A stretch of DNA of 44,896 nt from a virus (IMGVR_UViG_3300009481_000022:1-44896), one strand, 5' to 3'; positions 3,985 to 26,590 are shown, counted from the first letter of the stretch. Numbers and translations: made by a program. The notes: generated by a model not told the origin, from the letters alone.

Positions 3985-4556
3985 AACAAATAGATCCAGA
4001 TCACCCTATATGGGAAGTTGATTTTTCTTTGCCAGATATAGAATGGCAACAGAAGGATGACTATGTTCAAGAAGGTCTGGAGATGACAAATTTAAGGCAT
4101 GAACTATTTTGTCCTGTACAGGAAGATTATTTGAAATGGTTGGATGCTTGGAAAACACAATTATTTCAAGTTATAAAACCTTTTAGAAAAGAGGAAACTA
4201 CACCTCCTGTTGCAGTTAAGATGTGGAAAAGATATTTACAAACAATACACTTTCCAGGTGGTTTTGAAAAATACTTAAATATACTATTAGATAAACCTGG
4301 TTTTATTATGAATCCACATGAGGATAATAGATATGTTGTAGGTATATTACTTGTTAATTTACAAGACAATCCTACAGGAACATACTTTACAAGCATAGAT
4401 TACAAGCTTCCTGGAACTAAAGGAAAGGGTGTATTTTTCTTAAATCATAGTAATACAATGCACGGTATTGAACAAAAAGGACCAGGAGATAGAATAATAG
4501 CATACCAACATATATCAATCGGCCACTTAAAAGATATAAATAAAACTGATGGCTAA
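3981..4556 (+). CDS. 2OG-Fe(II) oxygenase family protein
   Basis: 191 residues. The double-stranded beta-helix iron triad is visible: NPHEDN (H113, D115), MHGIEQ (H161), and R171 in GDRIIAYQHI for 2-oxoglutarate binding. Family members hydroxylate or oxidise peptides, nucleobases or small molecules using Fe(II), O2 and 2-oxoglutarate. It overlaps the SDR-like gene by 4 nt, so the two are probably made together. Many marine T4-like phages carry such enzymes without a known substrate. Here the linkage to three radical SAM proteins suggests a shared tailoring pathway. Confidence 0.78.
   Translation: MKQIDPDHPIWEVDFSLPDIEWQQKDDYVQEGLEMTNLRHELFCPVQEDYLKWLDAWKTQLFQVIKPFRKEETTPPVAVKMWKRYLQTIHFPGGFEKYLNILLDKPGFIMNPHEDNRYVVGILLVNLQDNPTGTYFTSIDYKLPGTKGKGVFFLNHSNTMHGIEQKGPGDRIIAYQHISIGHLKDINKTDG
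4535..4542 (+). promoter_or_regulatory. T4-type late promoter box TATAAATA
   Basis: An exact TATAAATA lies inside the 3' end of the oxygenase gene, 6 nt before the ATG of the next gene. T4 late boxes span -13 to -6, so transcription would start at or one base before that ATG. No Shine-Dalgarno is visible. It also encodes part of DIN, so it may be coincidental. Confidence 0.4.
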
Positions 4557-4839
4557 GGTAATACAATTTCCTAAGAAGGAACCAAAGCCCAAACTTATAA
4601 AGGGCTATAGGATGTCCTTCTATACAGAGGACGAAATAGATCTAGCGCTTTTATGTATCAATACATATGGCTGGAATCGTATCGGCTATACTAGAAACAA
4701 TCTTAGTAAAGTAGACCCTTTGTACATAAAAGATTGTTTAATACGAGGCTATAATTCAGATTTGTTTTCTTATCCAGCAAGGAAGCTTATAAATAAAATT
4801 ATAGACGGAATGGAAACTATTGAGGTTAAGGCTAACTAA
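4549..4839 (+). CDS. Hypothetical protein, 96 aa
   Basis: A small protein with a basic N-terminus (FPKKEPKPKLIKGYR) followed by an acidic and aromatic helical part (YTEDEIDLALLCINTYGW). I do not recognise the family. It overlaps the oxygenase stop by 8 nt and is followed closely by the 4841 gene, so it belongs to the same plus-strand run. No signal peptide or membrane segment is visible. Expression may come from coupling to the upstream gene or from the late box just before it. Confidence 0.65.
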   Translation: MAKVIQFPKKEPKPKLIKGYRMSFYTEDEIDLALLCINTYGWNRIGYTRNNLSKVDPLYIKDCLIRGYNSDLFSYPARKLINKIIDGMETIEVKAN

Positions 4840-4840
4840 T

Positions 4841-5176
4841 ATGCCAATATACACATTTGAAAATACAGAAACTGAAGAACAGTTTGATATGATGATGGCC
4901 ATAGCAGATAAAGAAAAATGGCTGGAAAAGAATCCCCACATGAAACAAATTATTACTGCACCAAACTTAAATTTTGGTGGTGTGGGAGATCGTACGAAAC
5001 CAGATAAAGGTTTCCAAGATGTTTTATCAAGAGTAGCAGACGCTAATCCTTATTCACCAATGGCAGATGACTTTGGTAGAAAGGATGCAAAGTCTGTTAA
5101 AATTAGAGACACAGTTAAAAAAGTTAAAAAACGAGTCGGTAATTTGATGAGTGAATCAAAACCGGACAATGTATAA
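4841..5176 (+). CDS. Conserved phage protein, FmdB-like N-terminus
   Basis: 111 residues from the ATG at 4841. An upstream in-frame ATG at 4820 lies inside the preceding gene and is less likely. The N-terminus MPIYTFENTETEEQFDMMM resembles the start of FmdB-type zinc-ribbon regulators (MPxYxFxxxxxGxxFE), but the cysteines are absent. The middle is GVGDRTKPDKGF and the C-terminus is lysine-rich (VKKVKKRVGN). Proteins of this look are common in marine T4-like phages; their role is unknown to me. Confidence 0.65.
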   Translation: MPIYTFENTETEEQFDMMMAIADKEKWLEKNPHMKQIITAPNLNFGGVGDRTKPDKGFQDVLSRVADANPYSPMADDFGRKDAKSVKIRDTVKKVKKRVGNLMSESKPDNV

Positions 5177-5235
5177 AGGAGGCAATAAGAAAATTATATC
5201 ATGTTAGATAAAATCAACTAACAGGAGAACAATTA

Positions 5236-5976
5236 ATGGCTAGAAGAAATCTTCAACTAGTTCAAGACAACAAACAAAAAGGCAGGCGCTCGACGCCACT
5301 AAAAATACAACCAAACGATCTATTCAGATTTGATCCAATTACAGACACTCAATCCTTATTTTGGCAAAAGTACAAAAAGAAAGATGCATTACTCTTACAC
5401 GGCTCTGCTGGTACAGGTAAAACATTTATTGCTTTATATAAGGCTATGGAAGATGTAATTAACAAAGGAGGCCCATACAATAAATTAATTATTATACGAA
5501 GTGCAGTACCCTCCCGAGAAATAGGACACTTGCCTGGTGACTATGGAGAAAAGATAGATGTTTATTCCATACCATATCAAAATATGATGGACGAACTCTT
5601 TCCTCAAAAAGAGAAACCATATGACAGACTGATGGAGCAAAAGAAATTATACTTTATGTGCACCTCGTTTGTTAGAGGTATTACATTAGATAATGCAATC
5701 ATACTTGTTGATGAATGTCAGAATATGAACGACATGGAAATTAACAGTATTATGACAAGAGTAGGACATCAATCTAAAATTATATTTTCTGGAGACTTTA
5801 GACAAACAGACTTATATAAGAACAATGATAAATCAGGACTTAAGAAGTTTATACAAATAGCGGAGAATATGCCGTCATTTGATACAATAGAGTTTGGTCC
5901 TGAGGATATTGTTCGTTCAGAATTAGTCAAAGAGTACATATTAGCAAGGGTAAATTACGAAGAAAAATACGAATAA
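5236..5976 (+). CDS. phoH: PhoH-like P-loop ATPase
   Basis: 246 residues with Walker A GSAGTGKT (56-63), the RSAVPSREIGHLPGD motif typical of PhoH, Walker B IILVDECQN, and SGDFRQTDL near the end. PhoH proteins are ATPases linked to RNA metabolism and phosphate stress in bacteria. They are a common auxiliary gene in marine phages, where the function is still debated. The start has a good Shine-Dalgarno (AGGAG, 5222-5226) after a 59-nt gap. The stop is followed 4 nt later by an early-type promoter, so the next gene has its own transcription start. Confidence 0.95.
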   Translation: MARRNLQLVQDNKQKGRRSTPLKIQPNDLFRFDPITDTQSLFWQKYKKKDALLLHGSAGTGKTFIALYKAMEDVINKGGPYNKLIIIRSAVPSREIGHLPGDYGEKIDVYSIPYQNMMDELFPQKEKPYDRLMEQKKLYFMCTSFVRGITLDNAIILVDECQNMNDMEINSIMTRVGHQSKIIFSGDFRQTDLYKNNDKSGLKKFIQIAENMPSFDTIEFGPEDIVRSELVKEYILARVNYEEKYE

Positions 5977-5980
5977 GTGC

Positions 5981-6009
5981 TTGACTTTTGGTCCTAAAGA
6001 GTGCATAAT
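5981..6009 (+). promoter_or_regulatory. Sigma70-like early promoter P1
   Basis: TTGACT (5981-5986), a 17-nt spacer and CATAAT (6004-6009). The spacer carries GGTCC and AAGAGTG, which recur at the same place in the promoter at 43918 and in part in the one at 6500. The predicted +1 falls on the ATG at 6016 (6 nt after the -10), so the mRNA should be leaderless. Confidence 0.8.
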
Positions 6010-6015
6010 GTACGC

Positions 6016-6519
6016 ATGAAACTAAAGAAAGCCATCGAATTTGCTACTAAAGCACATGAAGGACAGACTAGAAAATACACTGGTGAGCCCTACATTGTAC
6101 ACCCTTTAGAAGTAGCTGATATTGTAAAGACTGTAGAGCATACAGAAGAAATGCTTATGGCAGCAGTTCTACACGACACCGTAGAAGATACTGATACTAC
6201 AATACAAGACATAGACAGAGAGTTTGGACCTGTTGTGGCTCAATTAGTAGAAGAATTAACTGATGTTTCTAAGCCAGAAGATGGTAACAGAGCCTTCAGA
6301 AAAGGGTTAGATAGGGAACATTCAGCACAGGCATCTGCCCAAGGACAAACAATTAAGATAGCAGACCTTATAAGTAACACTAAGTCTATAACAGAACATG
6401 ACCCTCATTTTGCGAAGGTTTACATGAAAGAAAAGGCTTTATTGTTACAAATCCTTGATAAGGCTGATAAAATTCTTTTGAAAAAAGCACAGAAAAAGGT
6501 TGACATTTGGTTCAATTGA
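6016..6519 (+). CDS. HD-domain hydrolase, MESH1/SpoT-like
   Basis: 167 residues. HD-superfamily metal ligands typical of (p)ppGpp hydrolases are visible: H29 in YIVHPLEVA, H53-D54 with E57-D58 in VLHDTVEDT, and the ELTDVSK segment. The small size and lack of a synthetase domain fit a stand-alone MESH1-like hydrolase. It may act on (p)ppGpp or another nucleotide pyrophosphate in the host cytoplasm. I chose the ATG at 6016 because the fold begins KKAIEFATKAHEGQ; a GTG at 6001 lies inside the -10 region. There is no Shine-Dalgarno, and the promoter places +1 at this ATG. The 3' end contains the next early promoter. Confidence 0.82.
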   Translation: MKLKKAIEFATKAHEGQTRKYTGEPYIVHPLEVADIVKTVEHTEEMLMAAVLHDTVEDTDTTIQDIDREFGPVVAQLVEELTDVSKPEDGNRAFRKGLDREHSAQASAQGQTIKIADLISNTKSITEHDPHFAKVYMKEKALLLQILDKADKILLKKAQKKVDIWFN

Positions 6520-6528
6520 GTGCATAAT
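6500..6528 (+). promoter_or_regulatory. Sigma70-like early promoter P2
   Basis: TTGACA (6500-6505), a 17-nt spacer and CATAAT (6523-6528), located in the last codons of the HD gene. It shares GAGTGCATAATGTA with the promoters at 5981 and 43918. The following leader AATAAAAAGTGAGGACT is nearly the same as the one before 43980, and contains the GTGAGG ribosome site for the gene at 6565. Confidence 0.82.
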
Positions 6529-6564
6529 GTATGTATATTAAATAAAAAGTGAGGACTAAATAAT

Positions 6565-6927
6565 ATGAAACAAGAACTAATAACTAAAATCGAAGGACTT
6601 TGTAAAGCAATCGAAGGACAACACTTCAAAGCTTTCCCAAGCCTTAAAGACTACGGTGTTACTTACAAAGCAGGCCGTAAATTCTGTAAAATTATTATTA
6701 CTGACGGCAACGGCGGTGATAGATCTGTATGGGGTTTCGTTAACCTAACACATGAAAAGTTCAACGAAGGCGATGTACTTAAAGCAGCCGGTTGGGCAGC
6801 TCCAGCTCTTAACAAAGCTAGAGGAAATGTTTTAAACGGTTACAGAGTAGGAGCTAGAGAACAATATGGTCCTGGTTACTTGTCTGGTTACTCAGCAGGT
6901 GGAACTAGAGACGGAGGTCTAGTTTAA
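6565..6927 (+). CDS. Hypothetical early protein, 120 aa
   Basis: A soluble, glycine- and lysine-rich protein. The readable core SVWGFVNLTHEKFNEGDVL is followed by an Ala/Gly/Arg-rich tail ending GGTRDGGLV. I recognise it only as a type seen in marine phages, with no assigned role. It sits first behind a strong early promoter with GTGAGG as ribosome site, so abundant early expression is likely. Its codons (many GGC, GCC, AAC) look less AT-biased than in neighbouring genes, which may reflect high expression. The stop overlaps the next start by one base. Confidence 0.7.
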   Translation: MKQELITKIEGLCKAIEGQHFKAFPSLKDYGVTYKAGRKFCKIIITDGNGGDRSVWGFVNLTHEKFNEGDVLKAAGWAAPALNKARGNVLNGYRVGAREQYGPGYLSGYSAGGTRDGGLV

Positions 6928-7109
6928 TGGAAGATAGGGAACACGAATATCTAATGAGCGTCCAGGATGAACTGAGCGCTCATAATGACGCAGCCCAAGA
7001 AGCACATCACATGGAACAAGAAGAAGCCCAAGCAAAAGCAGAAGGTTTTTGTATCCATTGTGGTTCCGATATAGATGATTGTACAGGATATAAATGCTGG
7101 ATTAGATAA
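6927..7109 (+). CDS. Small zinc-ribbon-like protein, 60 aa
   Basis: An acidic, His- and Glu-rich helical N-terminus is followed by C42xxC45 and C52xxxxC57 (FCIHCGSDIDDCTGYKCW), a plausible four-cysteine zinc site. Such mini zinc ribbons often mediate protein or nucleic-acid contacts, but no partner can be named. It overlaps both neighbours by one base, so it is translationally coupled inside the P2 operon with the nuclease that follows. Confidence 0.7.
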   Translation: MEDREHEYLMSVQDELSAHNDAAQEAHHMEQEEAQAKAEGFCIHCGSDIDDCTGYKCWIR

Positions 7110-7771
7110 TGTTTATACACGAGTCGGTTGACTTAGCTCAACTGAAAAGAAAAAATACTGAAGAAGGGCGTCGTTATGAGACGCCCCAAGGTGCTCTTTA
7201 TCCTTCGGTAACGACAATACTTTCCCACAAGTCAAAGCCCTTTATACAAGCATGGCGAAAACGAATAGGTGAGAAAGAGGCAGACAAAATTTCCTCACGA
7301 GCAGCTCGTAGAGGTACAAAAATTCATCATCTTGTTGAACACTATCTCAACAACGATACAGAAAAAGAACAAGAAGGTATCTTAACATTAGATTATATTG
7401 ATAAAGAAATGTATATCAATATGAAAGATCTGTTAGAAGATATCAATAATATTAGATGTTTAGAATCTACAATGTATTCAGATCACTTACGATTGGGTGG
7501 ACAAGTAGATTGTATTGCAGAATATAAAGGTCAACTTTCTGTTATAGATTTCAAAACATCTACAAAAAGAAAAACAAGATCACAATGCTATAATTACTTC
7601 ATACAATGTAGCGCTTATGCTATTATGTTCGAGGAACATACAGGCATACCAATCAATAATTGTGTTATTCTAATGACACAACAAGACGACGGTCCAGTGG
7701 TATTTACTGCTACAAGAGACGATTTCGTACCTAAACTTATCGAAGCTCGAGATGCATACGAGAATAGATAG
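7109..7771 (+). CDS. PD-(D/E)XK exonuclease, MGME1/RecB-like
   Basis: 220 residues. The nuclease core is GGQVDCIAEYKGQLSVIDFK: D134, then D147xK149 on the next strand. It is preceded by RGTKIHHLVEHYL (H73-H74), a helix typical of RecB/Cas4/MGME1-type single-strand exonucleases. The likely role is DNA processing during replication, recombination or host-DNA breakdown, acting in the cytoplasm. The absence of cysteines for a Fe-S cluster argues against Cas4 proper. It is the last gene of the P2 operon; a late promoter follows at 7781. Confidence 0.82.
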   Translation: MFIHESVDLAQLKRKNTEEGRRYETPQGALYPSVTTILSHKSKPFIQAWRKRIGEKEADKISSRAARRGTKIHHLVEHYLNNDTEKEQEGILTLDYIDKEMYINMKDLLEDINNIRCLESTMYSDHLRLGGQVDCIAEYKGQLSVIDFKTSTKRKTRSQCYNYFIQCSAYAIMFEEHTGIPINNCVILMTQQDDGPVVFTATRDDFVPKLIEARDAYENR

Positions 7772-7780
7772 GACGATTTG

Positions 7781-7788
7781 TATAAATA
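7781..7788 (+). promoter_or_regulatory. T4-type late promoter TATAAATA
   Basis: An exact late box in the gap after the nuclease gene, 52 nt before the start of the first lipoprotein. The leader holds a GAGGAG ribosome site. The gp33 coactivator gene in this window supports use of T4-like late transcription. Confidence 0.75.
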
Positions 7789-7840
7789 ATACAAGGTGAC
7801 GATAACAATAATATAATAATAATGTCATCGAGGAGTAAAA

Positions 7841-8128
7841 ATGAAAAGGATACTAGCTATCCTTCCTTTCCTTTTTATTGTAGGTTGTGCCTCAGTAGCG
7901 ACAGGCATAGACACAGCTAGAAATGTAGTAGCAACAAGCGTCTCAACCGTTACAGAGGCAGGTGCTTCTATGGTTGGCGCAGTAGCTAAAGATGTTTCTG
8001 ATGTTGTTTCTACAACGGCAGAAGTAACTGCTGGTGTTGTTGATACTATAGGCGATGAAGTCAAGGACCAAGCAAAAGAGCTTGAAGTTAAAGAACCTGA
8101 CTTCCCTACAGGAGAATTAAAGGACTAG
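7841..8128 (+). CDS. Small predicted lipoprotein A (95 aa)
   Basis: The signal peptide MKRILAILPFLFIVGC ends in a lipobox-like IVGC, with C16 as the predicted lipidated residue. The mature part is a long Ala/Val/Thr-rich amphipathic helix (TEAGASMVGAVAKDVSDVV...), ending EPDFPTGELKD. The same DFPTGxLK ending appears in the -1 frame of the second small lipoprotein at 8572. The Shine-Dalgarno GAGGAG is well placed. Together with the holin-like gene and the secreted hydrolase downstream it could be a spanin-like lysis component or an envelope/exclusion lipoprotein. No family assignment. Confidence 0.75.
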   Translation: MKRILAILPFLFIVGCASVATGIDTARNVVATSVSTVTEAGASMVGAVAKDVSDVVSTTAEVTAGVVDTIGDEVKDQAKELEVKEPDFPTGELKD

Positions 8129-8245
8129 GTAAAGGATCAAACCAATAAGGGGTGGCTGTAAAAGGCGCCCTTTGTTGTCTTTGCACTATTGATATAATTA
8201 ATTGTTACAATTGGCAGAATTATTCCTGTAAATACGGCCAACCCT

Positions 8246-8253: not shown

Positions 8254-8261
8254 AAAGTGAT

Positions 8262-8486: not shown

Positions 8487-8500
8487 GACCTAATAGTGCT

Positions 8501-8805: not shown

Positions 8806-8816
8806 TATAATAAATA
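8806..8816 (+). promoter_or_regulatory. Variant late/-10 box TATAATAAATA
   Basis: This box ends 6 nt before the ATG at 8823, and no Shine-Dalgarno is present. It resembles the other boxes placed at leaderless distance, but it is not an exact TATAAATA. Confidence 0.4.
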
Positions 8817-8822: not shown

Positions 8823-8960
8823 ATGCGTAAAAAGAAACTTAAAATCAGGAATCCTGTAGCCCGTTATGCTAAATTGTTTAACAAGGCCACAGTCGTGCCT
8901 GATAAAACTAAGTATAATCGAAAGAAGGATAAGAAAGTTTCTGACGCTGATATAGACTAA
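8823..8960 (+). CDS. Small basic protein (45 aa)
   Basis: The sequence begins MRKKKLKIRNPVARYAKLFN and ends KKDKKVSDADID. Lysine/arginine-rich with the RNPVARYAKLFNKATVVPDK core, it resembles small conserved T4-like phage and proteobacterial proteins (RNPVAK...KAxxxxDKKxxYxRK; I think this is the DUF7230 type). Function unknown; nucleic-acid binding would be a guess. It has no Shine-Dalgarno and lies 6 nt after a late-like box. It is followed by the SleB-type hydrolase 15 nt downstream. Confidence 0.7.
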   Translation: MRKKKLKIRNPVARYAKLFNKATVVPDKTKYNRKKDKKVSDADID

Positions 8961-8975: not shown

Positions 8976-9449
8976 ATGCGTAAGTTATGGATAACATTAC
9001 CGATATTATTTTTTGGTTATGTAGGGCAAGTAGAAGCCAATAGTGATGTACATTGTTTGGCAGAAAATATTTACCATGAAGCCCGAGGTGAGTCTACAGC
9101 AGGTAAAATGGCTGTGGCACTTGTTACACTTAACAGAGTAAAGGATGAAAGATTCCCTGATACTGTTTGTGGTGTGGTAAAACAAACTAAATTTTATCCT
9201 AGTGGAAGGATAGATTTACATTCTTGTCAGTTCAGTTGGTATTGTGATGGTAAATCAGATAAACCAAGCGACAAGAAATGCTGGGACGATGCGTTACTAA
9301 TTGCACAAGTTATGATATCATATAGTGCAATAGATGTAACAGGAGGTGCCTTGTGGTACCATAGTCGTAAAGTACAACCAGAGTGGTCTATGGTTTATAT
9401 AAAAACAGTAAGCATAGACAACCATATCTTTTATAAAGACCTTGACTAA
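8976..9449 (+). CDS. Secreted cell-wall hydrolase, SleB/Hydrolase_2 type
   Basis: 157 residues with an N-terminal signal (RKLWITLPILFFGYVGQVEA, cleavage near residue 21). The Hydrolase_2 core is LAENIYHEARGES, with E35 as the likely catalytic acid, then ALVTLNRVKDERFPDTVCGVV and QFSWYCDGKSD. The family cleaves peptidoglycan glycan strands (SleB-type lytic transglycosylase). A strong AGGAGG precedes the start. The signal peptide implies Sec export, so it could be an exported endolysin or act on the host wall during infection. It is the only secreted muralytic enzyme here; a separate T4-type lysozyme lacks a signal. Confidence 0.88.
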   Translation: MRKLWITLPILFFGYVGQVEANSDVHCLAENIYHEARGESTAGKMAVALVTLNRVKDERFPDTVCGVVKQTKFYPSGRIDLHSCQFSWYCDGKSDKPSDKKCWDDALLIAQVMISYSAIDVTGGALWYHSRKVQPEWSMVYIKTVSIDNHIFYKDLD

Positions 9450-9470
9450 AGCATTGGAAGATCATATAAT
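9442..9470 (+). promoter_or_regulatory. Sigma70-like promoter P4
   Basis: TTGACT (9442-9447), a 17-nt spacer and consensus TATAAT (9465-9470). It overlaps the 3' end of the hydrolase gene. The ATG at 9477 is 6 nt after the -10, exactly at the predicted +1. Confidence 0.78.
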
Positions 9471-9476: not shown

Positions 9477-10352
9477 ATGTTAACGGATATACCACATGTG
9501 ATAGTTACAGGCGGTTGTGGTTTTATAGGATCACACCTTACGAAACATCTATTGACGCAAGGTTTTTGTGTTACGGTTGTTGATGACAACAGAACAGGAA
9601 ATGTATTTCACAGTCATGACAGCGTAGAGTATCATAAATGTGATGTTGTAGATTTCAACCCACACAAAAATTCTATAGAACCACCTTCCGCCATTTTTCA
9701 TTTAGCAAACAGCCCTCGAGTAAGGAGGGCTTTGGAATATCCTACAGAAACGATTGTAAACAATATAGGAACAACATGTGCAGTAGCAGATTGGGCTAGA
9801 ATATTTAATTGTAAATTATTCTTTTCTACATCTTCTAGTACACAATATGCAGAGTCTTTAAACAATCCTTATACATTTAGCAAGGTTGTTTGTGAGTCTG
9901 CTCTAAGCATGTACAGAGAATTGTATAGTTTAGATTATGTTTTAATGTATTTCTATAATGTATATGGACCTGGCGAGGCAGACTATGGGCAATACAGCAC
10001 AGTCATTAGAAAGTTTAAACAGGATTATTTGGCAGGAAACCCTTTAACAATATATGGCAAAGGAGATAAAGAGCGTGATTTTACACATATAGATGATGTA
10101 ATACAAGGAATGTTACAACTTACAGCAGATCCTACTAGCCCTTCTATTGCACATTTTGGAAGTGGTAGTCCTAGATCAATAGCATCAATAGCAGATTGTT
10201 TTAAGCATCCCGTTGTACATTCATTTGACAGAAAAGGAGAGGCACAGAGAACACATTGTGAACTTCCTTATATAGAACCCACGCACGATGTACACGAATA
10301 TATAAAGAACTGGGTTCAGGAGAATAAAAGTGGAACCAAAACTAATAATTGA
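9477..10352 (+). CDS. NAD-dependent epimerase/dehydratase
   Basis: 291 residues of the extended SDR family: VTGGCGFIGSHL dinucleotide loop near residue 10, FHLANSPRV, the STSSSTQY serine region, YTFSK as catalytic YxxxK, YNVYGPG, and ERDFTHIDDV. These match UDP-glucose 4-epimerase-like nucleotide-sugar enzymes. It probably makes a nucleotide sugar for the glycosyltransferase two genes downstream. The start has no Shine-Dalgarno and coincides with the predicted +1 of the promoter at 9442. The 3' end overlaps the gp33 gene by 23 nt. Confidence 0.88.
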   Translation: MLTDIPHVIVTGGCGFIGSHLTKHLLTQGFCVTVVDDNRTGNVFHSHDSVEYHKCDVVDFNPHKNSIEPPSAIFHLANSPRVRRALEYPTETIVNNIGTTCAVADWARIFNCKLFFSTSSSTQYAESLNNPYTFSKVVCESALSMYRELYSLDYVLMYFYNVYGPGEADYGQYSTVIRKFKQDYLAGNPLTIYGKGDKERDFTHIDDVIQGMLQLTADPTSPSIAHFGSGSPRSIASIADCFKHPVVHSFDRKGEAQRTHCELPYIEPTHDVHEYIKNWVQENKSGTKTNN

Positions 10353-13215: not shown

Positions 13216-13233
13216 ATAAAACATAGAGTTTTG

Positions 13234-13260
13234 GGAGGCTCCTTACGGAGCCTTCTTTTT
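13234..13260 (+). terminator. Rho-independent terminator after gp32
   Basis: AGGCTCC (13236-13242), loop TTAC, GGAGCCT (13247-13253), then TCTTTTT. Two more closing pairs extend the stem. It is a textbook terminator separating the gp32 operon from the desaturase. Confidence 0.93.
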
Positions 13261-13265
13261 ATCTA

Positions 13266-13273
13266 CATAAATA
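13266..13273 (+). promoter_or_regulatory. Late-like box CATAAATA
   Basis: A one-base variant of TATAAATA, exactly 5 nt before the desaturase ATG and just after the gp32 terminator, which makes a new promoter necessary here. The predicted +1 is the A of the ATG. Confidence 0.6.
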
Positions 13274-13278
13274 GTAGT

Positions 13279-14010
13279 ATGTTTAATTTATCCTACACTA
13301 CAAAGGTAGCAGTAAAAATTGTTTTATTATATGCAGTAGCATTAATTTGTGTTCCTTTGTGGTTTATATTTGAACAACCCTCAATCGGCGAAGTCATATT
13401 TTGGTTTGCACTAGCAGCATTTGTTTCACGAATAGCAAATGTAGGATATCATAGATGGCTTACACACGCACAGTTTATACCTAGTTGGTTTGGCAGAAAA
13501 TTAATGTTGTGGTTTATGGTAATGACAGCAGAAGCACCTCCAGGACATTATGTAGTATCTCACTTACAACATCACGCTAACACAGATGAAGATGGAGACC
13601 CTCATGGTCCTAATCAAATAGGTTTTAAAAGACTATTCTTTGGACAATATGATGAAGTAAAACCTCGAGTAGGTTTCCTTAGACACTATTCTAAGCAAAA
13701 GGATGCACAATTCGTTACAAAACATTATTGGTTATTATACTTAATTAATTGGATTGTGTTTGCTCTTATAAGCAAATGGCTTACAGTATGGTTAGCATTT
13801 ATGTTTGCTTGGAGTTGGATATGGTTTCTAGTTATTAATTGGGGAGGACATGGAGGTAAAAAAGGAGAACCTACAAACCTAAATTGGTTATGTAATATCT
13901 TCATGGGAGGAGAAGACTATCATAAAAATCATCACGACAAACCGGGACGATTAGTATATGGTAAGTACGATACAACAGGCAGATTTATTGTGCCTTTACT
14001 ATTAAAATAA
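13279..14010 (+). CDS. Membrane fatty-acid desaturase
   Basis: 243 residues from the ATG at 13279; reading further upstream would run into the gp32 terminator. Three histidine boxes of the di-iron acyl desaturases are present: HRWLTH (58-63), HLQHH (95-99) and HKNHH (215-219). Several hydrophobic helices flank them (11-31, 37-51, 74-83, 151-186). It would insert double bonds in host membrane acyl chains. As a phage auxiliary gene it may tune membrane fluidity or lipid supply during infection. There is no Shine-Dalgarno; the late-like box sits at leaderless distance. Confidence 0.92.
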   Translation: MFNLSYTTKVAVKIVLLYAVALICVPLWFIFEQPSIGEVIFWFALAAFVSRIANVGYHRWLTHAQFIPSWFGRKLMLWFMVMTAEAPPGHYVVSHLQHHANTDEDGDPHGPNQIGFKRLFFGQYDEVKPRVGFLRHYSKQKDAQFVTKHYWLLYLINWIVFALISKWLTVWLAFMFAWSWIWFLVINWGGHGGKKGEPTNLNWLCNIFMGGEDYHKNHHDKPGRLVYGKYDTTGRFIVPLLLK

Positions 14011-14012: not shown

Positions 14013-14783
14013 ATGTTTGATATACCTATATACCACAAATCAGATATAGCAAAAGAGTTATTACCTCATCTACAAACAGAGGTTCAAGCAGAATACGATA
14101 GAAGAGAATTTTACGAAAAAGCAAATCCTGAAATGGGAAGTCATTATAGAAAACTTTCTGTATATGATGAGAAAGGAGAACATGCATCTGTTACACTTTC
14201 AGACCCTATGGTAAATATAACTCATTACCCAGAATTACAAAAAATAATACATACACACGCAATAGAATATTTAAACAGTTTAACTTCATTTCCTTTTGCA
14301 GATATGTTGGAAATGAATTGGAATCATTATTCTTGGTGGTCCTGTTTTGACGGAGGAGATAGTTATTCATGGCACAATCATAGTCAGTTCTTTCTTATAG
14401 CAACTTACTATTTAGAGTGTGATGAAGAACATACACCTATAGCATTTAGAAATCCTATAGGAAATTTGTTAGAAGCATGGTTACCAGGCAAAATGACGGG
14501 TATAGATACAGAGGTTGTTATAAAACCTAAAACAGGAGATTTAATGATTTGGCCAGCATGGTTAGAACATTATGTATATAACAAAACTTTGTGGCAACTA
14601 GAACAACAAAACGATCCTAATTTAACTACACATAGAGGTGGTAATTGGAATAAGATTGTTGCAGGACATAATCCTAAAAATTCTAGTTACGAGTCTATAA
14701 GAAAAAGTATTACTATAAACTATATGAAACCAGCAGAATTGTTTGGTTGGCATATTAAAAGAACGGGAAACAATAATGAATAG
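14013..14783 (+). CDS. 2OG-Fe(II) oxygenase, PF13759-like
   Basis: 256 residues. WHNHSQFFLIATYYLE supplies H121/H123, GDLMIWPAWLEHYVY supplies H186, and RKSITINYM supplies R230, the layout of the putative 2OG-Fe(II) oxygenase family common in cyanophages. Start 2 nt after the desaturase stop, so the two are probably cotranscribed. Substrate unknown. It is unrelated in detail to the oxygenase at 3981, so this phage carries several distinct versions. Confidence 0.8.
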   Translation: MFDIPIYHKSDIAKELLPHLQTEVQAEYDRREFYEKANPEMGSHYRKLSVYDEKGEHASVTLSDPMVNITHYPELQKIIHTHAIEYLNSLTSFPFADMLEMNWNHYSWWSCFDGGDSYSWHNHSQFFLIATYYLECDEEHTPIAFRNPIGNLLEAWLPGKMTGIDTEVVIKPKTGDLMIWPAWLEHYVYNKTLWQLEQQNDPNLTTHRGGNWNKIVAGHNPKNSSYESIRKSITINYMKPAELFGWHIKRTGNNNE

Positions 14784-15222
14784 AGAAGAAGTTTACGAAC
14801 AACTAAAAATAGATGAAGGAGTAGTCTATGCAATCTACAACGATCACCTCGGGTATCCCACCTTTGGAGTCGGTCACCTTATCAAGGAGAGTGACACGGA
14901 ACATGGAAGGCCAGTTGGAACTCCAATTGACGAAGAAAGAGTTAGGTCGTGTTTCGAACAAGACCTTGACATTGCCATTGGAGAGTGTTCAGCTTTATAC
15001 GGAGAGAGGGAATTTGGAGAACTACCCGATCCAGTCCAGCAAATCTTGGTTAATATGATGTTTAACATGGGACGAACTAGACTATCTAAGTTTAAAAAAA
15101 TGAACGCAGCTATAGCAGAAGGAGATTGGAAAACTGCAGCTGTTGAAGGTAGGGATAGTCGTTGGTATAACCAAGTTAGAAATAGAGCTGAAAGATTGAT
15201 GAAAAGATTGGAAGTAGTTTAG
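14776..15222 (+). CDS. T4-type lysozyme (GH24)
   Basis: 148 residues. The N-terminus LKIDEGVVYAIYNDHLGYPT carries E14, D23 and T29 with the same spacing as T4 lysozyme E11/D20/T26, followed by FGVGHL. It hydrolyses the peptidoglycan glycan backbone. There is no signal peptide. In T4 one such domain sits inside baseplate gp5; the gp5 of this phage lacks it, so this free enzyme may be the tail-associated or the lytic enzyme. It overlaps the oxygenase gene by 8 nt. The stop converges with the minus-strand tape-measure-like gene, overlapping by 4 nt. Confidence 0.92.
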   Translation: MNREEVYEQLKIDEGVVYAIYNDHLGYPTFGVGHLIKESDTEHGRPVGTPIDEERVRSCFEQDLDIAIGECSALYGEREFGELPDPVQQILVNMMFNMGRTRLSKFKKMNAAIAEGDWKTAAVEGRDSRWYNQVRNRAERLMKRLEVV

Positions 15223-19865: not shown

Positions 19866-20489
19866 TTACTTTCTCCTACTTAATGCCGCTGTATTTACTG
19901 ACATGCGTCGTTTTCTTTCTGGTTTTTCCATTGTGTTTTGATATACAGTTCTCTCTGTAGCTCCTACAAATTTTTGTACAGGAAGAAATATAGCTGATTT
20001 CCAATTTTTAGGATCTACTTCTATCATCTCTCCTGTTATATTAGCTGTTAAATATTTTTTAACAGAACCTCTAACTTCTGGGAACCTTGAGAAGTTTCTT
20101 ACAGAAGCCCATGTTGATCTTAATGTACTTTTATCTGTAATATTTTGCTGATCTACAGGATATATTTTATCCAATAGATTAGCTCTAAATGTAGGAGCCA
20201 GATAATGTAAATTAATACCACTAAAACCTTGTGGCATAGGTTCTGTAATCACTACAAGAGGAACAGTATCATAATAAGGTAAGTCTGCTTTCCATTTAGG
20301 ATCGTAAGAAAACATATACATTTTACCTACTTCTAATTGTCTAGCTTTTTTACCAAGATCTGTACTTCGTGCCTCTTGGAATGTATTAACTCCTCTAGCA
20401 TAATCACGGACAGCACGAACATACCATTGGACTGATCTGTCCAAGTTATCTCCAGCTGCTTGTCGTATGTCTGCAAAAGGTGTCGCCAT
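19866..20489 (-). CDS. Conserved T4-like virion/morphogenesis protein
   Basis: 207 residues. GKMYMFSYDPKWKADLPYYD, PLVVITEPMPQGFSGINLHY and a basic C-terminus (ERKRRMSVNTAALSRRK) are visible. I recognise the type from T4-like marine phages, where it lies by gp4; in T4 the gene next to gp4 is the DNA end protector gp2, so it may fill that role, but I cannot confirm this. The ATG is 5 nt after a perfect minus-strand TATAAATA and has no Shine-Dalgarno. Confidence 0.6.
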   Translation of the reverse strand: MATPFADIRQAAGDNLDRSVQWYVRAVRDYARGVNTFQEARSTDLGKKARQLEVGKMYMFSYDPKWKADLPYYDTVPLVVITEPMPQGFSGINLHYLAPTFRANLLDKIYPVDQQNITDKSTLRSTWASVRNFSRFPEVRGSVKKYLTANITGEMIEVDPKNWKSAIFLPVQKFVGATERTVYQNTMEKPERKRRMSVNTAALSRRK

Positions 20490-20494: not shown

Positions 20495-20502
20495 TATTTA
20501 TA
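20495..20502 (-). promoter_or_regulatory. Minus-strand late promoter TATAAATA
   Basis: Minus strand reads TATAAATACTTACATG: exactly 5 nt between the box and the start of the 20489 gene, so +1 falls on the A of ATG. It follows directly on the gp4 stop codon. Confidence 0.75.
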
Positions 20503-20949
20503 CTAGATACCCAATTCTTTTTCAGTAACTATCTTAAATTCCATGCCTTGAGCTTTACAAAAATCCTTTGCATGTTTCCATTTGGCCTCGTTTACTCCGT
20601 ATTGTGCTATCTCTTGCAGATGTCTTTTGGTTCTACGCTTCTGAGGTGAGGGAGGTTTAGTAAATCTTTCTGGTTTTACTTCGATTAAATATTTCTTTAT
20701 CTTATTTTTTTCTTGTACTTCTATATAGAAATCAACCATATACCTATGTACTTTATTGTCTAAAGGATTACGATAGGGTATTGCAATCTCTTCTGATACC
20801 CAACCTTTTATAGAACTGCTTAGATCACACCAGTTCATAAACTTTAATTCATAACTTGATCTATAGGTTATTGCATTGAAGTCGCCAAGATATTTCATTG
20901 GATTACGAGGAATAAACTTTCCTTTATATATTTCTTTGGCATAAACCAT
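20503..20949 (-). CDS. gp4: Head completion nuclease gp4
   Basis: 148 residues from the ATG at 20949; an upstream in-frame ATG at 21000 would overlap the divergent gene and its promoter. YKGKFIPRNPMKYLGD, ITYRSSYELKFMNWCD, PYRNPLDNKVHRYMVDFYI and YLIEVKPERFTKPP match gp4 (gp50), a nuclease-fold protein with D...ExK (VDF...EVK). It acts in head completion after DNA packaging. It is the first gene of the minus-strand run and divergent from gp48. Confidence 0.88.
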   Translation of the reverse strand: MVYAKEIYKGKFIPRNPMKYLGDFNAITYRSSYELKFMNWCDLSSSIKGWVSEEIAIPYRNPLDNKVHRYMVDFYIEVQEKNKIKKYLIEVKPERFTKPPSPQKRRTKRHLQEIAQYGVNEAKWKHAKDFCKAQGMEFKIVTEKELGI

Positions 20950-20956
20950 ATAAATA
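20949..20956 (+). promoter_or_regulatory. Late promoter TATAAATA for the gp48 operon
   Basis: An exact box 37 nt before the gp48 ATG in the divergent gp4/gp48 gap. It overlaps the gp4 start codon. A minus-strand variant TAATAAATA at 20976-20984 may serve gp4. Confidence 0.65.
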
Positions 20957-20993
20957 AGAATATAAGTTAAATAACTATTTATTAGGATAATAT

Positions 20994-22136
20994 ATGGCAA
21001 GTTCCGATAAACATTTAGAAAGAGGAGGTACCTACTTCAAATACCCACAAGAACTAGGGCAAGCACAGTTTCCTCATGCTGTTAAATTTTATGTAAATGC
21101 TCGAAAAACTGTAGCAGTAAACAACGAAATTGCCGCTTTCGAATTTACTGACGAGGAAAGACAAAAATTTAATAATGAAAATAGATCCAGTTCAGAACAA
21201 TACGAAACAGCAGCAATGATTTCTGGAGGTTTGGCTGCAGCTGTAGGTACCTATGCAGCAGCAAAAGGTATTACAGGAGAGGGTGTATCAGGCATGATGA
21301 GAACAGTACAAGTGGGTGCAGGTGCCGCTGTTGGTGCAGGAATTGCATCTGCAGTTGCAGATAATATGGAACAAGTAAGATTGAAGAATGCGATATCCTT
21401 ATTCATACCTCAATCAGTCGTTGCAGGATATACAGCCAATTGGGACGAAGCAGATTTAGGACCTGTAGCAGGTATGTTAGGAACAGGCGGTATTTCTAGT
21501 GGCGATGCATTAGTGGGTAACGCAGCAGAACTTATAGGTAGAGGATTAGTATCAGGTGCAGCGAATATAGCATCCTCAGTAGGTATAGGAGATATTAACT
21601 TTAGTGGAATGTTTGAAGCTACAAGTAAGAAAGTAGAAAATCCATACAAAGAACAATTATTTAAATCAATGGGATTTAGGCAGTTTTCTTTTCAGTATAA
21701 CTTTTCACCTAAAAACGAAGGTGAAGCAAAAGAGGTTCAAGACATTGTAAAATTGTTTAAAGAAAACATGCACCCTTCTGTAGACGAGTCAGGATTGTTT
21801 TTAATTTATCCTTCAGAATTTTCTATAGAGTTTCAATCATTAGATAGTGCCGGCGAGCTAGTAAGAAATCATAACTTACCTGCAATATCATCTTGTGCAT
21901 TAAAAAATGTTAAGGTTACATATGGTCCTGATGGTATGTTTAACGCATTTAAAAATTCAGGCGGTATGCCAACTGAAACTACTATGGAATTACAATTTGT
22001 AGAACTAGAAACTCTCACAAGAGAAAGAATAAATGAATTGGAACCAACTCAAAAAGAAGTAGAAAAAGAAAAGAAAGAGGAAAAAGACCCTGAAGCACCC
22101 GTAGCCCAGAGGGGACATATAGGAAGGAGTATCTAA
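20994..22136 (+). CDS. gp48: Baseplate tail-tube cap gp48
   Basis: 380 residues. Central hydrophobic Gly/Ala segments (GGLAAAVGTYAAAKG, VGAGAAVGAGIASAV) are followed by GFRQFSFQYNFSPKNEGEAKEVQDIV and LIYPSEFSIEF, typical of gp48. The protein caps the baseplate hub and, with gp54, seeds the tail tube. The charged tail (EVEKEKKEEKDPE) is likely disordered. First gene of the plus-strand baseplate operon; its stop overlaps gp53 as TAATG. Confidence 0.85.
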   Translation: MASSDKHLERGGTYFKYPQELGQAQFPHAVKFYVNARKTVAVNNEIAAFEFTDEERQKFNNENRSSSEQYETAAMISGGLAAAVGTYAAAKGITGEGVSGMMRTVQVGAGAAVGAGIASAVADNMEQVRLKNAISLFIPQSVVAGYTANWDEADLGPVAGMLGTGGISSGDALVGNAAELIGRGLVSGAANIASSVGIGDINFSGMFEATSKKVENPYKEQLFKSMGFRQFSFQYNFSPKNEGEAKEVQDIVKLFKENMHPSVDESGLFLIYPSEFSIEFQSLDSAGELVRNHNLPAISSCALKNVKVTYGPDGMFNAFKNSGGMPTETTMELQFVELETLTRERINELEPTQKEVEKEKKEEKDPEAPVAQRGHIGRSI

Positions 22137-22654
22137 TGTATTTTAAAGCACTGCCTAAAATGAAATATCCAGTTCCAACTTCTGACGGCAAAATTAAAGG
22201 TAAGATTGTTACTGATATTTTTAGGCGTGTTCAATTAGATAGATTTTTTACTAATAGACAAACATTAGTAGATATTATTCTTGACGATAACGACACACCA
22301 GAAAGTGTAGCATATAACTATTATGGCTCTACACAATATCATTGGTTAGTATTGTTGTCTAATAGTATTGTAGATGTGGATAGAGAATGGCCGTTGTCTT
22401 ATAACCAACTTAATGATTATATATCAGATAAGTATGGAGCAAATAATTCTCAAGATGTACATCATTATGTAGACGCTACAAGAGAAGATATAATTGTAGA
22501 TTGGGACGCAGGAAAATTAGCTGCTGGAGAAATAAAAGAAGTTACAAACTTTACATACGAAAACGATAAAAACGATAACAAAAGACAAATATTTTTATTA
22601 GATAAAAGATTCCTTAAGGACATAGTTACACAGTATAAAAAATTGGTGAAGTAA
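22136..22654 (+). CDS. gp53: Baseplate wedge gp53
   Basis: 172 residues. MYFKALPKMKYP, VTDIFRRVQLDRFFTNRQTL and DTPESVAYNYYGSTQYHWLVLL are the gp53 family signature (a LysM-like fold with the YG..QYHW segment). gp53 clamps neighbouring wedges around the hub during baseplate assembly. Coupled to gp48 by a one-base overlap. Confidence 0.92.
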   Translation: MYFKALPKMKYPVPTSDGKIKGKIVTDIFRRVQLDRFFTNRQTLVDIILDDNDTPESVAYNYYGSTQYHWLVLLSNSIVDVDREWPLSYNQLNDYISDKYGANNSQDVHHYVDATREDIIVDWDAGKLAAGEIKEVTNFTYENDKNDNKRQIFLLDKRFLKDIVTQYKKLVK

Positions 22655-22658
22655 TATC

Positions 22659-24041
22659 ATGGCGGAAACAACCGACGAACAATTAAATAAACCCGGTGAT
22701 GTAAGAGTAGATGAGTTATTCATCACATTATCTAATGGTGAAAATTATGATCTATTACCCTTCTTTGTAGAATTAAATTTATATGAAGATGTGTGGAATG
22801 TTTTCCTTTCAGGAAATGTTATTTTAAAAGACGCTATTAATTTAATTGGTACAGGACCTATTGCAGGTGGAGAAGGTATTACAATGAAATTAAGAACACC
22901 TACTTATGATGATATACCTGAAAATGTAATAGACAAAACATTTCAAATATATGCTATAAAAGATAGAGTTTTAAATAACGATAGAGAGCAAATTTATATA
23001 CTACATTTTATTTCTATAGAAGGAATGAATGATCAAGGTGTAGTATTGTCCCAAAGATTCCAAGGTAATACAGGTGAAATAGCAGAAAAAATATATGCAG
23101 ATTATGTAGTAGAATCTAGAAGACCCTTAGAAGGTACAGAACCTACAAAGATGCTTATAGGAGATTTACCACACGCTTCTAAAGTAAATTTTCTAGCAAA
23201 CTTATGGACACCAATACAAACATTACAATTTTTATCTAAGTATTGTAAGGGCAACAAACACATAGGAGCTGATTTCATATTTTTTGAAAGTAATAAACAG
23301 TTTTATTATACATCAATACAAAATTTAATATCAGCACAAAGGGATTTAATATTTGACGAATATATTTATACGCCTCCAGGCATGGATTTGCCTCACAGAG
23401 ATGGTGGAGAAACTTATACAGGAGTTAAATTACCTAAGACATTCGTTACTATAAGTTCTATACAAGTACCTAGAACAATTGATATTATAAATGGACAAGA
23501 TAGTGGGTATTATTCTCAAACTGTAAGAGCATATGATTTGTTTACAAAAGAAAGAGTAGAACAGAAGTTAGATGTAAGAGAAGACTTTGATAAGTTTGCT
23601 CACACAGATCCTGGAATACCTATACCAGAAGGCATACAAAGAAATCCTTTTGCAATGACTACAATAAAAGTTTTAAATAGTGTAAACAATATGACACAAT
23701 CATTTAACTTGCCAGGCTCATCATCAGGTAATTCAGATAATGAAAATATAATTGGTGCAAGTTTATATAGAGACAATTATTTTAATTCTTTCAAGGACTA
23801 TACATTTGAAATAGAAGCTCCTGGAAGAACAGATATAGAAGTAGGAAGACTAATTAATTTACAATACCCTTCTCCTATAACTAAAACAGAAGATGTAAAT
23901 CCAGACGATTTGTTTGATAAACAATTATCTGGTAAATATTTAATAACAGCAATAAGACATAAAATAGATACTGTTGCACATATAATGAAAATGGAAATAG
24001 TTAAAAATGGATTACCAGAATCCATGGGGGAGCCTGAATAA
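22659..24041 (+). CDS. Baseplate hub subunit, gp27-like
   Basis: 460 residues. The N-terminal VDELFITLSNGENYDLLPFFVELNLYEDVWNVFLSG and late VGRLINLQYPSPI ... GKYLITAIRHKID segments suit the two-layer hub fold of gp27/gpD proteins, including the final hub beta-barrel that carries the spike. It lies directly before gp5, as hub genes usually do. Longer than T4 gp27 (391). Direct homology to T4 gp27 is not evident by eye, so this is a functional call. Confidence 0.65.
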   Translation: MAETTDEQLNKPGDVRVDELFITLSNGENYDLLPFFVELNLYEDVWNVFLSGNVILKDAINLIGTGPIAGGEGITMKLRTPTYDDIPENVIDKTFQIYAIKDRVLNNDREQIYILHFISIEGMNDQGVVLSQRFQGNTGEIAEKIYADYVVESRRPLEGTEPTKMLIGDLPHASKVNFLANLWTPIQTLQFLSKYCKGNKHIGADFIFFESNKQFYYTSIQNLISAQRDLIFDEYIYTPPGMDLPHRDGGETYTGVKLPKTFVTISSIQVPRTIDIINGQDSGYYSQTVRAYDLFTKERVEQKLDVREDFDKFAHTDPGIPIPEGIQRNPFAMTTIKVLNSVNNMTQSFNLPGSSSGNSDNENIIGASLYRDNYFNSFKDYTFEIEAPGRTDIEVGRLINLQYPSPITKTEDVNPDDLFDKQLSGKYLITAIRHKIDTVAHIMKMEIVKNGLPESMGEPE

Positions 24042-25567
24042 TGAGTAGTTTAAAAAACTTTGGAAAATTAAATATACCAGATTGGATTTGGTGGATAGGT
24101 ATTATTGAATCCAGAGCTGATGTAACACAGACAGGAAGATATAGAGTTAGAATAATGGGGTATCATACTGCTGATACTGAAGAATTACCTACAAAAGATT
24201 TACCTTTTGCCACCGTTGTTAATAGTGTTACAAATGCAAGCACATCAGGCATTATGGAAAATCCTAATCTATTACCTGGCTCAACAGTAGTAGGATTTTT
24301 TGCAGATGGAGAAGAAGGACAATTTCCTATTATACTAGGTTCTTTTGCAGGACTGCCTCAGAAAAAGAATGAAGATCTTACAATAGAAGATGGATTCAAC
24401 GATCCAAATAAAAAATATCCTAGAGGAGGCTTTGATGAAGACGCTCCTGAAGGATTTGCAGGTGTAGGTGAACCAGACATTTCTAGACTTGCAAGAGGAG
24501 AGAAGGCAGAAGAACATTACAGTCTAGTTACTAAAAGAGCAGAAAGAGAAAAAGATATAAGAACAGCTTCTGCACCTACAGTAGAAGCAGACGGTGTATT
24601 AGATGATATATCAAATAAAGACTATGAAGGTAAAACATGGGAAGAACCATATGCAAGAGGACAAGGACCATATGATACTTTTGAAATGTCTGAATTCAAA
24701 CCTAAGTATTGGGACTCACTTAAAGATTTAAAAGAAGGTGGAGATGGTGTCCCTAAAGAACCTGGAACATATACATCTATGTATCCTTTTAATCTTGTTA
24801 GAGAAACAGAAGCAGGGTTTACACAAGAAATAGACAATACAACAGGAAATGAAAGATATGCTTGGTATCATCCTGTAGGAAACTTTGAAGAAGTACAAGC
24901 AGACGGAACAAGAATTAATAAAATTAAAGGATCGGATTATGAGATTACAGTTAAAGACAAAAATGTTCTTATCAGAGGTTCTTGTAATGTAACTATTGCA
25001 GGTGATGCTAAATTATTAGTACATGGAGACAAATACGAAGAAGTAGAAGGCAATTACTTTTTAAAAGTACATGGAGACAGAGTAACTAAAATACAAGGCA
25101 ACGATGCCAAGGTAGTTAATTCAGATCAAAACTACAGCATAGGAGGTAATAGATCTGTTCGTGTAGCATTAGACGACTCTGCTACAATAGTAGGAAAACA
25201 AACACAAACAGTTGCAAAAACAAAAACAGAATCAGTAGCTGGAAAAGTTTCAGAGGATTTTGGAGATGGGCAATTAACAAAAGTAACAGGCAATATAATA
25301 CAAAGAACATCTAACGCATTCCAACAAATGGCAGGTGGTATTATGTCTATATTGTCTGGTTCAGATATGACATTAAAAACAGCTACCAAGATGACAGTAG
25401 AAGCACAAACAGAAATGACAATAGATGCTCCTACAATGTCTATAGATGGACCGGCTGGAAACATTACTTCTAATGATGTAACATTACATACGCATACACA
25501 TGCACAAGGTAATGATACAAGAGGTGATGGACAATCGGAAACAAACGCACCAACAGGAGGATCATAA
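24041..25567 (+). CDS. gp5: Baseplate central spike gp5 (no lysozyme domain)
   Basis: 508 residues. The N-terminal OB-fold (WWIGIIESRADVTQTGRYRV ... VVGFFADGEEGQFPIILGSF) is followed by a linker and a repetitive beta-helix (GDKYEEVEGNYFLKVHGDRV, SIGGNRSVRV, TESVAGKVSEDFG). The T4-type lysozyme domain that T4 gp5 has between these parts is absent. The C-terminal tip contains LHTHTHAQG, with H483, H485 and H487 suited to binding an iron ion as in P2 gpV-type spikes. One-base overlap with the hub gene. Confidence 0.87.
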   Translation: MSSLKNFGKLNIPDWIWWIGIIESRADVTQTGRYRVRIMGYHTADTEELPTKDLPFATVVNSVTNASTSGIMENPNLLPGSTVVGFFADGEEGQFPIILGSFAGLPQKKNEDLTIEDGFNDPNKKYPRGGFDEDAPEGFAGVGEPDISRLARGEKAEEHYSLVTKRAEREKDIRTASAPTVEADGVLDDISNKDYEGKTWEEPYARGQGPYDTFEMSEFKPKYWDSLKDLKEGGDGVPKEPGTYTSMYPFNLVRETEAGFTQEIDNTTGNERYAWYHPVGNFEEVQADGTRINKIKGSDYEITVKDKNVLIRGSCNVTIAGDAKLLVHGDKYEEVEGNYFLKVHGDRVTKIQGNDAKVVNSDQNYSIGGNRSVRVALDDSATIVGKQTQTVAKTKTESVAGKVSEDFGDGQLTKVTGNIIQRTSNAFQQMAGGIMSILSGSDMTLKTATKMTVEAQTEMTIDAPTMSIDGPAGNITSNDVTLHTHTHAQGNDTRGDGQSETNAPTGGS

Positions 25568-25568
25568 T

Positions 25569-26171
25569 ATGAGTTGCGGACCGTCAAAAGAATTATTAGC
25601 AGTTGCAGATCAAATAGATGCGTTGAACGCACAATTAGACGCAGCTATAATGGATATACCTGGCATGGGTGAACTTGCAGGATTAAAAGGCAAAGTAGAA
25701 GGAGAGGCACAAAAATTAAAAGATAAGTTAAGCGCTGCTTTACCGTCTATTAGTTTCCCTAATGTACCTTTTGGCCAACAGTCATTACAAGATCAAATAA
25801 AATCTGTAGCCGGTTTAATTGCATTAGGTATAGCGGGTAAAGATCAATTAGAGAATCAAATAGATTTTCTAAAAGCAAAATACAGTGGTATGGATGTTGA
25901 TATTGATAATATTGCAGACTTGTTACGACAAGGAGCAATGGATTTAGACTCTATTTGTAAAATGGTTCCTAATATACAAACACAAGGAATAGATCTTACA
26001 GTAAAAGGAATACCTACATCTTTTCCTGATATAGATCCTGTAGCTATTATTAGAGGCAACCCTGTACCAGAGATGCCTTCAATAGATAATGTTTACATAG
26101 ATAAGAATGTAAGATCAAAAGAACAAGCAGAGGAATTTTTAAATATTGAACTGCCTAACTTTGACTTTTAA
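25569..26171 (+). CDS. Conserved baseplate-operon protein, 200 aa
   Basis: The start at 25569 was chosen because the in-frame ATG at 25500 lies within the end of gp5. MSCGPSKELLAVADQIDALNAQLDA opens an alanine-rich helical protein with a central ISFPNVPFGQQSLQDQI segment and a Pro-rich C-terminus (GNPVPEMPSI). Similar proteins accompany gp5 and gp25 in marine T4-like phages. Role unknown; a hub or spike accessory is plausible. Confidence 0.65.
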   Translation: MSCGPSKELLAVADQIDALNAQLDAAIMDIPGMGELAGLKGKVEGEAQKLKDKLSAALPSISFPNVPFGQQSLQDQIKSVAGLIALGIAGKDQLENQIDFLKAKYSGMDVDIDNIADLLRQGAMDLDSICKMVPNIQTQGIDLTVKGIPTSFPDIDPVAIIRGNPVPEMPSIDNVYIDKNVRSKEQAEEFLNIELPNFDF

Positions 26172-26172
26172 G

Positions 26173-26180
26173 TATAAATA
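26173..26180 (+). promoter_or_regulatory. Late promoter TATAAATA before gp25
   Basis: TATAAATACTAATATG: a perfect box, a 5-nt gap and the start codon, with no Shine-Dalgarno. Nearly identical to the minus-strand arrangement at 20495. Confidence 0.78.
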
Positions 26181-26185
26181 CTAAT

Positions 26186-26590
26186 ATGGCTATACTTAAA
26201 CAAAAAAGAGCAAGAATTTATAAAGACTTTGATCTCTCGTTTGGTAAAAATTCTTTATCGGGAGATATTAATAAAAAACTTGATGTAAATGCCGTGAAAC
26301 AGGCAATGATTAATTTAGTCATGACTCAACCTTTTGAAAGGCCTTTTAATCCTTTACTAGGATCTGAGATAAATAATTTGTTATTTGAACATATGGATAC
26401 TTTTACTAGCGATGCTATACAAAAGAATTTATTATATTTGTTTAGAAATTATGAACCCAGATGTAGGATAACGGATCTAAGAGTAAAACCTTATTATGAA
26501 TTAAATGAATATGTAGTATCAATAGATTTTCATATTACAGGTATAAATGAACCACAAGAATTAGAAGTAAGACTAGAGAGGCTAAGGTAA
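26186..26590 (+). CDS. gp25: Baseplate wedge gp25
   Basis: 134 residues, full family length. KRARIYKDFDLSF, AVKQAMINLVMTQPFERPFNP, GSEINNLLFE and the diagnostic NYEPRCRI (EPR motif) are present. gp25 forms the core of the wedge with gp6 and starts sheath polymerisation; its family is shared with type VI secretion TssE. Preceded by a late promoter at leaderless distance, and coupled to gp6 by TAATG. Confidence 0.95.
   Translation: MAILKQKRARIYKDFDLSFGKNSLSGDINKKLDVNAVKQAMINLVMTQPFERPFNPLLGSEINNLLFEHMDTFTSDAIQKNLLYLFRNYEPRCRITDLRVKPYYELNEYVVSIDFHITGINEPQELEVRLERLR

Follow-up and report, generated by a model that had tools for sequence, protein, structure and literature searches.

Leaderless translation is generally regarded as a rarity among phages and, to our knowledge, does not figure in the textbook account of the T4 programme. 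In phage lambda, the cI mRNA is translated from its 5′-terminal AUG, and leaderless mRNAs in general prefer AUG as the start codon (PMC9031893). In the Deinococcus-Thermus group, a -10 motif found 6-7 bp before the ORF yields leaderless mRNA, with RNA-seq support (PMC12340547), and the leaders measured in Lactococcus cremoris are either absent or long, none being of 4-14 nt (PMC10986495). The late promoters of T4 depend on gp55 and consist of an 8-bp TATAAATA box that begins at -13, roughly one turn of the helix above +1, without a -35 site (PMC2988020). The phages described here share this box, and gp55 homologues are present among them, but no scanned T4 box lies 5 nt before the ATG of an ORF of at least 60 aa, and T4 genes have leaders. 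Whereas the Deinococcus-Thermus genes are bacterial, are read with a host sigma factor and make up about one third of genes genome-wide, those considered here belong to phages, most of them have a phage late sigma box set at one fixed register, and each phage genome has 3-9 genes with such a box. Lambda cI, in turn, is a single repressor gene of a temperate phage, unlike the several genes per genome, virion proteins included, considered here.

The window, by which we mean the whole stretch of DNA analysed, comes from IMG/VR, where it is entered as a linear virus sequence of 44,896 bases; its G+C content is 35%, and it represents part of the genome of a marine T4-like phage. Its T4-type genes include gp32, gp59, gp2 and gp25, and its cargo genes encode radical SAM proteins, a desaturase and an epimerase among others. 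A lysozyme-like frame (MNREEVYEQLKIDEGVVYAIYNDHLGYPTFGVGHL), named by eye, spans 14743-15222 and overlaps a 2OG oxygenase gene; its true start is probably the ATG at 14776. Judged by the gp25 protein, the named phages closest to it are cyanophages P-RSM4, S-TIM4 and S-SM1, Pelagibacter phage HTVC008M and Methylophilales phage Melnitz; a megablast search of phage records with the first 20 kb of the window found no match. The comparison covered four genomes of the window clade and the isolates HTVC008M, Mosig and Melnitz, and included the full sequence of a 170-kb IMG/VR relative. Homologues of gp55 were detected in the 170-kb relative (E 1.7e-18), HTVC008M and Melnitz, and a gp55 search of the window fragment found none.

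The original prediction held that several genes of the window lack a leader, having late boxes 5 nt before the ATGs at 13279, 20489 (minus strand) and 26186, sigma70 -10 boxes 6 nt before 6016 and 9477, and two looser cases at 6 nt, 4549 and 8823. All of these positions and distances proved correct.

Late boxes at exactly five nucleotides

A T4-type late box, CATAAATA, occupies 13266-13273 on the plus strand, 5 nt before the ATG of a putatively leaderless gene for a fatty acid desaturase (13279-14010, plus strand; PF00487, E 1.6e-12), and the 5-nt spacing recurs in all relatives examined. Directly upstream of the box lies an intrinsic terminator with a 10-bp stem and a U-run (13233-13261, plus strand; fold -18.6 kcal/mol, z -4.0), and the order after gp32 is hairpin with U-run, late box, 5 nt and desaturase ATG. 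The hairpin between gp32 and the desaturase is kept in relatives, with a compensatory change. The slot behind gp32, made up of terminator, late box, 5 nt and ATG, is seen in the window (13216-13279), in locus L038, in HTVC008M (6205-6280) and in Mosig (106671-106744), and the gene it carries differs between lineages: the desaturase in the window, a 2OG oxygenase in L038 and HTVC008M, and gp2 in Mosig. The terminator stands immediately upstream of the box in three lineages with three different genes. With such a terminator in front, the genes in this slot are unlikely to draw most of their mRNA from longer transcripts that read through from upstream, and the desaturase's own promoter is probably its main mRNA source.

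The second late box, TATAAATA with the spacer CTTAC (20495-20502, minus strand), lies 5 nt before the ATG at 20489 of gp2, the DNA end protector and a putative leaderless gene (19866-20489, minus strand; phrog_429, E 3e-46), and occupies the 13-nt gap behind the stop of the upstream gene. The 5 nt are kept in 24/24 close relatives, and HTVC008M, Mosig and Melnitz also carry gp2 in this form; in more distant gp2 relatives no box is present, and gp2 begins right at, or overlapping, the stop of the gene before it. The third, again TATAAATA but with the spacer CTAAT (26173-26180, plus strand), precedes by 5 nt the ATG at 26186 of the baseplate wedge gene gp25, likewise putatively leaderless (26186-26590, plus strand; PF04965, phrog_261). 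Box, 5 nt and ATG are found in 17/17 gp25 relatives, with differing upstream sequence and spacer letters, and HTVC008M has the same arrangement; exceptions are Mosig, with 8 nt, and Melnitz, with a leader carrying a Shine-Dalgarno site. With sequences collapsed by N-terminus, 5 nt is found at 26 distinct starts, and spacings of 0-4 or 6-16 nt do not occur.

Two late boxes stand head to head in the window at 20949-20994, between a plus-strand gene that starts at 20994 and a minus-strand gene that starts at 20949, the latter upstream of gp2 and gp4-like by position. This divergent pair is conserved in the 170-kb, 55-kb and 38-kb relatives.

Box-to-ATG distances were scanned by taking every TATAAATA in a genome and every ATG within 60 nt that opens an ORF of at least 60 aa; any first base of the box was allowed in the 5-nt counts. 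Across the four window-clade genomes, HTVC008M, Mosig and Melnitz the spacing is bimodal: one isolated peak falls at exactly 5 nt, and genes with leaders mostly begin 12 nt or further from the box. In the window clade, HTVC008M and Melnitz there are none at 4 nt and few or none at 6-11 nt. The 5-nt counts are 3 in the window, 9 in the 170-kb relative, 9 in HTVC008M, 3 in Melnitz and 6 in Mosig. By themselves, the three late-type cases of the window give a modest P = 2e-4; the 170-kb relative, with nothing at 0-4 or 6-11 nt, gives P = 1.3e-8, and the peak in HTVC008M P = 4e-11. The peak is missing from T4, the cyanophages Syn9, P-RSM4 and S-PM2, and Pseudoalteromonas phage XG4, with one such ATG at 5 nt in S-PM2 and none in the others. 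The 5-nt ATGs of three isolates are all starts in the deposited annotation (18/18), which is independent of the scan, and 30/30 starts at this distance are ATG, with no GTG or TTG, matching the AUG preference of leaderless mRNA. The implied gap in leader lengths resembles that of Lactococcus, where it was measured in a bacterium; here it is implied from sequence. The original prediction expected distance peaks at 5-6 nt rather than a flat distribution, and this held for the late box, whose peak is sharp; the sigma70 peak at 6 nt is weak.

Genes resembling GIY-YIG endonucleases by eye start exactly 5 nt past TATAAATA in L097, in L128 and at 155782 of the 170-kb relative; as these contigs are unrelated, mobile endonucleases may carry the box-5 nt-ATG module with them.

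Wider occurrence was surveyed in IMG/VR with a pattern that joins TATAAATACT to TATGGC across a gap of variable length, that is, a box followed by CT and an MA start. The stretches retrieved, counts that are indicative only because the pattern fixes CT and ATGGC, were 91 at 4 nt, at least 120 at 5 nt (the commonest spacing among those tried), 102 at 6 nt, 36 at 7 nt and 59 at 9 nt. Among those examined, an ORF of at least 60 aa was present in 71%, 94%, 74%, 75% and 19%, respectively, the baseline for any TATGGC in the IMG/VR loci scanned being 49%. A universal 5-nt register was rejected, as many real gene starts in IMG/VR have 4 or 6 nt instead. Given how frequent these two spacings are, it is safer in general to speak of a leader of 0 plus or minus 1 nt; as an indication only, near-zero leaders appear widespread in IMG/VR, and the strict 5-nt register belongs to the lineages studied. 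Tail-sheath-like frames starting MALT[IL]QSPGVQI have a 6-nt CTTTAT spacer in L601, L629, L637, L639 and L642, which suggests lineages with a shifted start site.

Sigma70-type genes, looser cases and Shine-Dalgarno content

At 5981-6009 (plus strand), a sigma70-type promoter, TTGACT-17-CATAAT, has its -10 box ending 6 nt before the ATG at 6016 of a putatively leaderless HD_4 phosphohydrolase gene (6016-6519, plus strand; PF13328, E 5.6e-21). Promoter and 6-nt spacing are kept in 8/9 close relatives, and relatives include forms one codon longer at the N-terminus, in which the ATG is still placed at the promoter. The promoter TTGACT-17-TATAAT (9442-9470, plus strand) similarly ends 6 nt before the ATG at 9477 of a putatively leaderless gene for a nucleotide-sugar epimerase (9477-10352, plus strand; PF01370, E 8e-41), an arrangement kept in 7/7 relatives. 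Both promoters have -35 and -10 hexamers about 17 bp apart. Genome-wide, a -10 box at 6 nt was counted twice in the window, three times in the 170-kb relative, twice in HTVC008M and never in T4, and the distance in Melnitz is 7-8 nt. This weak peak is suggestive only, and it is ortholog conservation, not a strong genome-wide peak, that supports the putative sigma70 subclass. Whether the host might share this spacing was examined in 400 kb of a SAR11 genome, which has a slight excess at 6-7 nt.

Three near-identical sigma70-type promoters with GTGCATAATGTA lie in the window at 5981, 6500 and 43918; one is putatively leaderless and the other two lead into an GTGAGGACT Shine-Dalgarno leader. The 170-kb relative has several copies like these. 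At 43918 the promoter sequence is GTACGCATAAAC and a Shine-Dalgarno leader follows, and at 5981 it is GTACGCATGAAA, the same position now being the start codon; compared as predicted promoters, the two are a near-natural experiment.

In the looser cases, a late box TATAAATA (4535-4542, plus strand) lies 6 nt before the ATG of a possible leaderless gene with no assigned function (4549-4839, plus strand), whose relatives have spacings of 5, 6 or, in one, 8 nt. A late-like box AATAAATA (8809-8816, plus strand) lies 6 nt before the ATG of a possible leaderless DUF7230 gene (8823-8960, plus strand; PF23876, E 9e-11), whose relatives have exactly 5 nt in 4/7 and 6 nt in the other three. Both are possible, weaker members that vary among relatives.

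These genes had been said to have no Shine-Dalgarno site, in contrast to genes with longer leaders. The anti-Shine-Dalgarno pairing energy has a median of -0.9 kcal/mol at the seven box-adjacent starts versus -6.6 kcal/mol at 38 other starts in the window (P = 8e-5), and the longer-leader genes at 7841, 8313, 8572, 12286 and 41988 do have Shine-Dalgarno sites (-6.4 to -9.5 kcal/mol). Part of this deficit is nevertheless mechanical, as -13 to -6 is taken up by the box, and low pairing is a consequence of the layout, not independent evidence. Ordinary overlapping genes (878, 2094, 3981, 10626, 11612 and 28494) are also without a Shine-Dalgarno site, and its absence alone was rejected as proof of leaderlessness since coupled genes lack one too.

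Transcription start and competing readings

The position of the transcription start was assessed at 133 boxes of these phages not followed by an ATG at 5 nt. A purine stands at position 6 after the box in 116/133 (87%; background 61%; P 1.6e-11) and at position 5 in only 39%, that is, a Y(-1)R(+1) initiator, and T4 and the cyanophages have the signature at the same position. Because these boxes have no ATG there, the purine places +1 independently of the start codon; the predicted +1 of the 5-nt class is the base that holds the A of ATG, as had been proposed. For the sigma70 pattern TTGAC-17-[TC]ATAAT, pyrimidine-A occupies positions 6-7 after the -10 box at 19/23 sites, or 14/18 leaving out genes with an ATG there. 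A literature search found no published transcript starts for these phages.

The reading that we favour, at a probability of about 85%, is that these genes form a leaderless class with exact-register promoters and mRNA beginning at AUG. At 13279, 20489 and 26186, host RNA polymerase with the phage sigma factor gp55 would transcribe late from a bare TATAAATA box, starting RNA on the sixth base after it, the A of ATG, to give a 5′-AUG mRNA with no leader; at 6016 and 9477, sigma70-type promoters would start RNA on the seventh base after the -10 box. These mRNAs without Shine-Dalgarno sites would be translated by leaderless, 70S-type initiation on the 5′-terminal AUG. Promoter and start site together would take only 13 bp, which fits between genes or behind a terminator in tightly packed genomes and could give a single gene its own expression. 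The original suggestion that leaderless translation is a used strategy is supported by the 5-nt peak, the initiator, the orthologue spacing and the terminator, from which we infer the 5′ ends and translation mode of these genes.

Compaction with translational coupling could also bring boxes close to start codons: the genes would be translated by ribosomes that reinitiate past the upstream stop of a read-through mRNA, and the boxes would lie near the ATG because intergenic space is short. The starts of gp2 and gp25 do lie 13-14 nt past the upstream stop, and in S-PM2 and distant gp2 relatives gp4 and gp2 are directly coupled without a box; both genes, standing behind same-strand genes, could also be read from longer mRNAs in this way. 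Compaction predicts a spread of spacings, however, and a single 5-nt register is seen, the desaturase sits behind a strong terminator, and 6016 and 9477 each have a complete -35/-10 promoter just in front. We consider this account unlikely.

It is very improbable that the A+T-rich TATAAATA acts in the RNA as a non-Shine-Dalgarno, S1-type ribosome site and is no promoter. Such a role would suit starts that lack a Shine-Dalgarno site and have the box in its usual place, but the same word is found 20-60 nt ahead of genes whose Shine-Dalgarno sites are good, the box carries the initiator signature at the promoter-predicted position, and gp55 is encoded. Chance would deserve attention in a genome of 35% G+C, where boxes are frequent and the window alone offers few cases; yet 55 permuted words of the same composition gave at most 2 matches at 5 nt versus 7-9 for TATAAATA, T4 has none at the same G+C, and orthologues conserve the spacing. 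Chance is thereby already refuted for the late-box class and its probability overall is minimal, the sigma70 class having less genome-wide support.

Leaderless mRNAs and -10-adjacent genes are already known; the exact-register late-promoter class appears undescribed. A search of the open-access literature found no paper describing leaderless genes as a class in T4-like phages, and the passages of the Melnitz paper that bear on the subject list early and late promoters with no mention there of a leaderless class. Tentatively, and at somewhat less than even odds, the leaderless reading may be extended to environmental T4-like phages in general: a 13-bp module of late box, 5 nt and AUG would fuse transcription and translation initiation in one register, drive virion genes and give cargo (desaturase, 2OG oxygenase, endonucleases) its own late expression wherever placed, including the recurrent slot behind the gp32 terminator. 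Late mRNAs would then fall into two classes, leaderless and Shine-Dalgarno-led, possibly differing in their response to ribosome changes during infection.

The late-box register predicts exact 5′ ends and helps to call gene starts. The putative leaderless class is conserved, includes the virion proteins gp2 and gp25, and occurs in phages that infect the abundant marine bacteria SAR11 and OM43; with it one could ask, in a natural system, under what circumstances a genome prefers leaderless to Shine-Dalgarno initiation.
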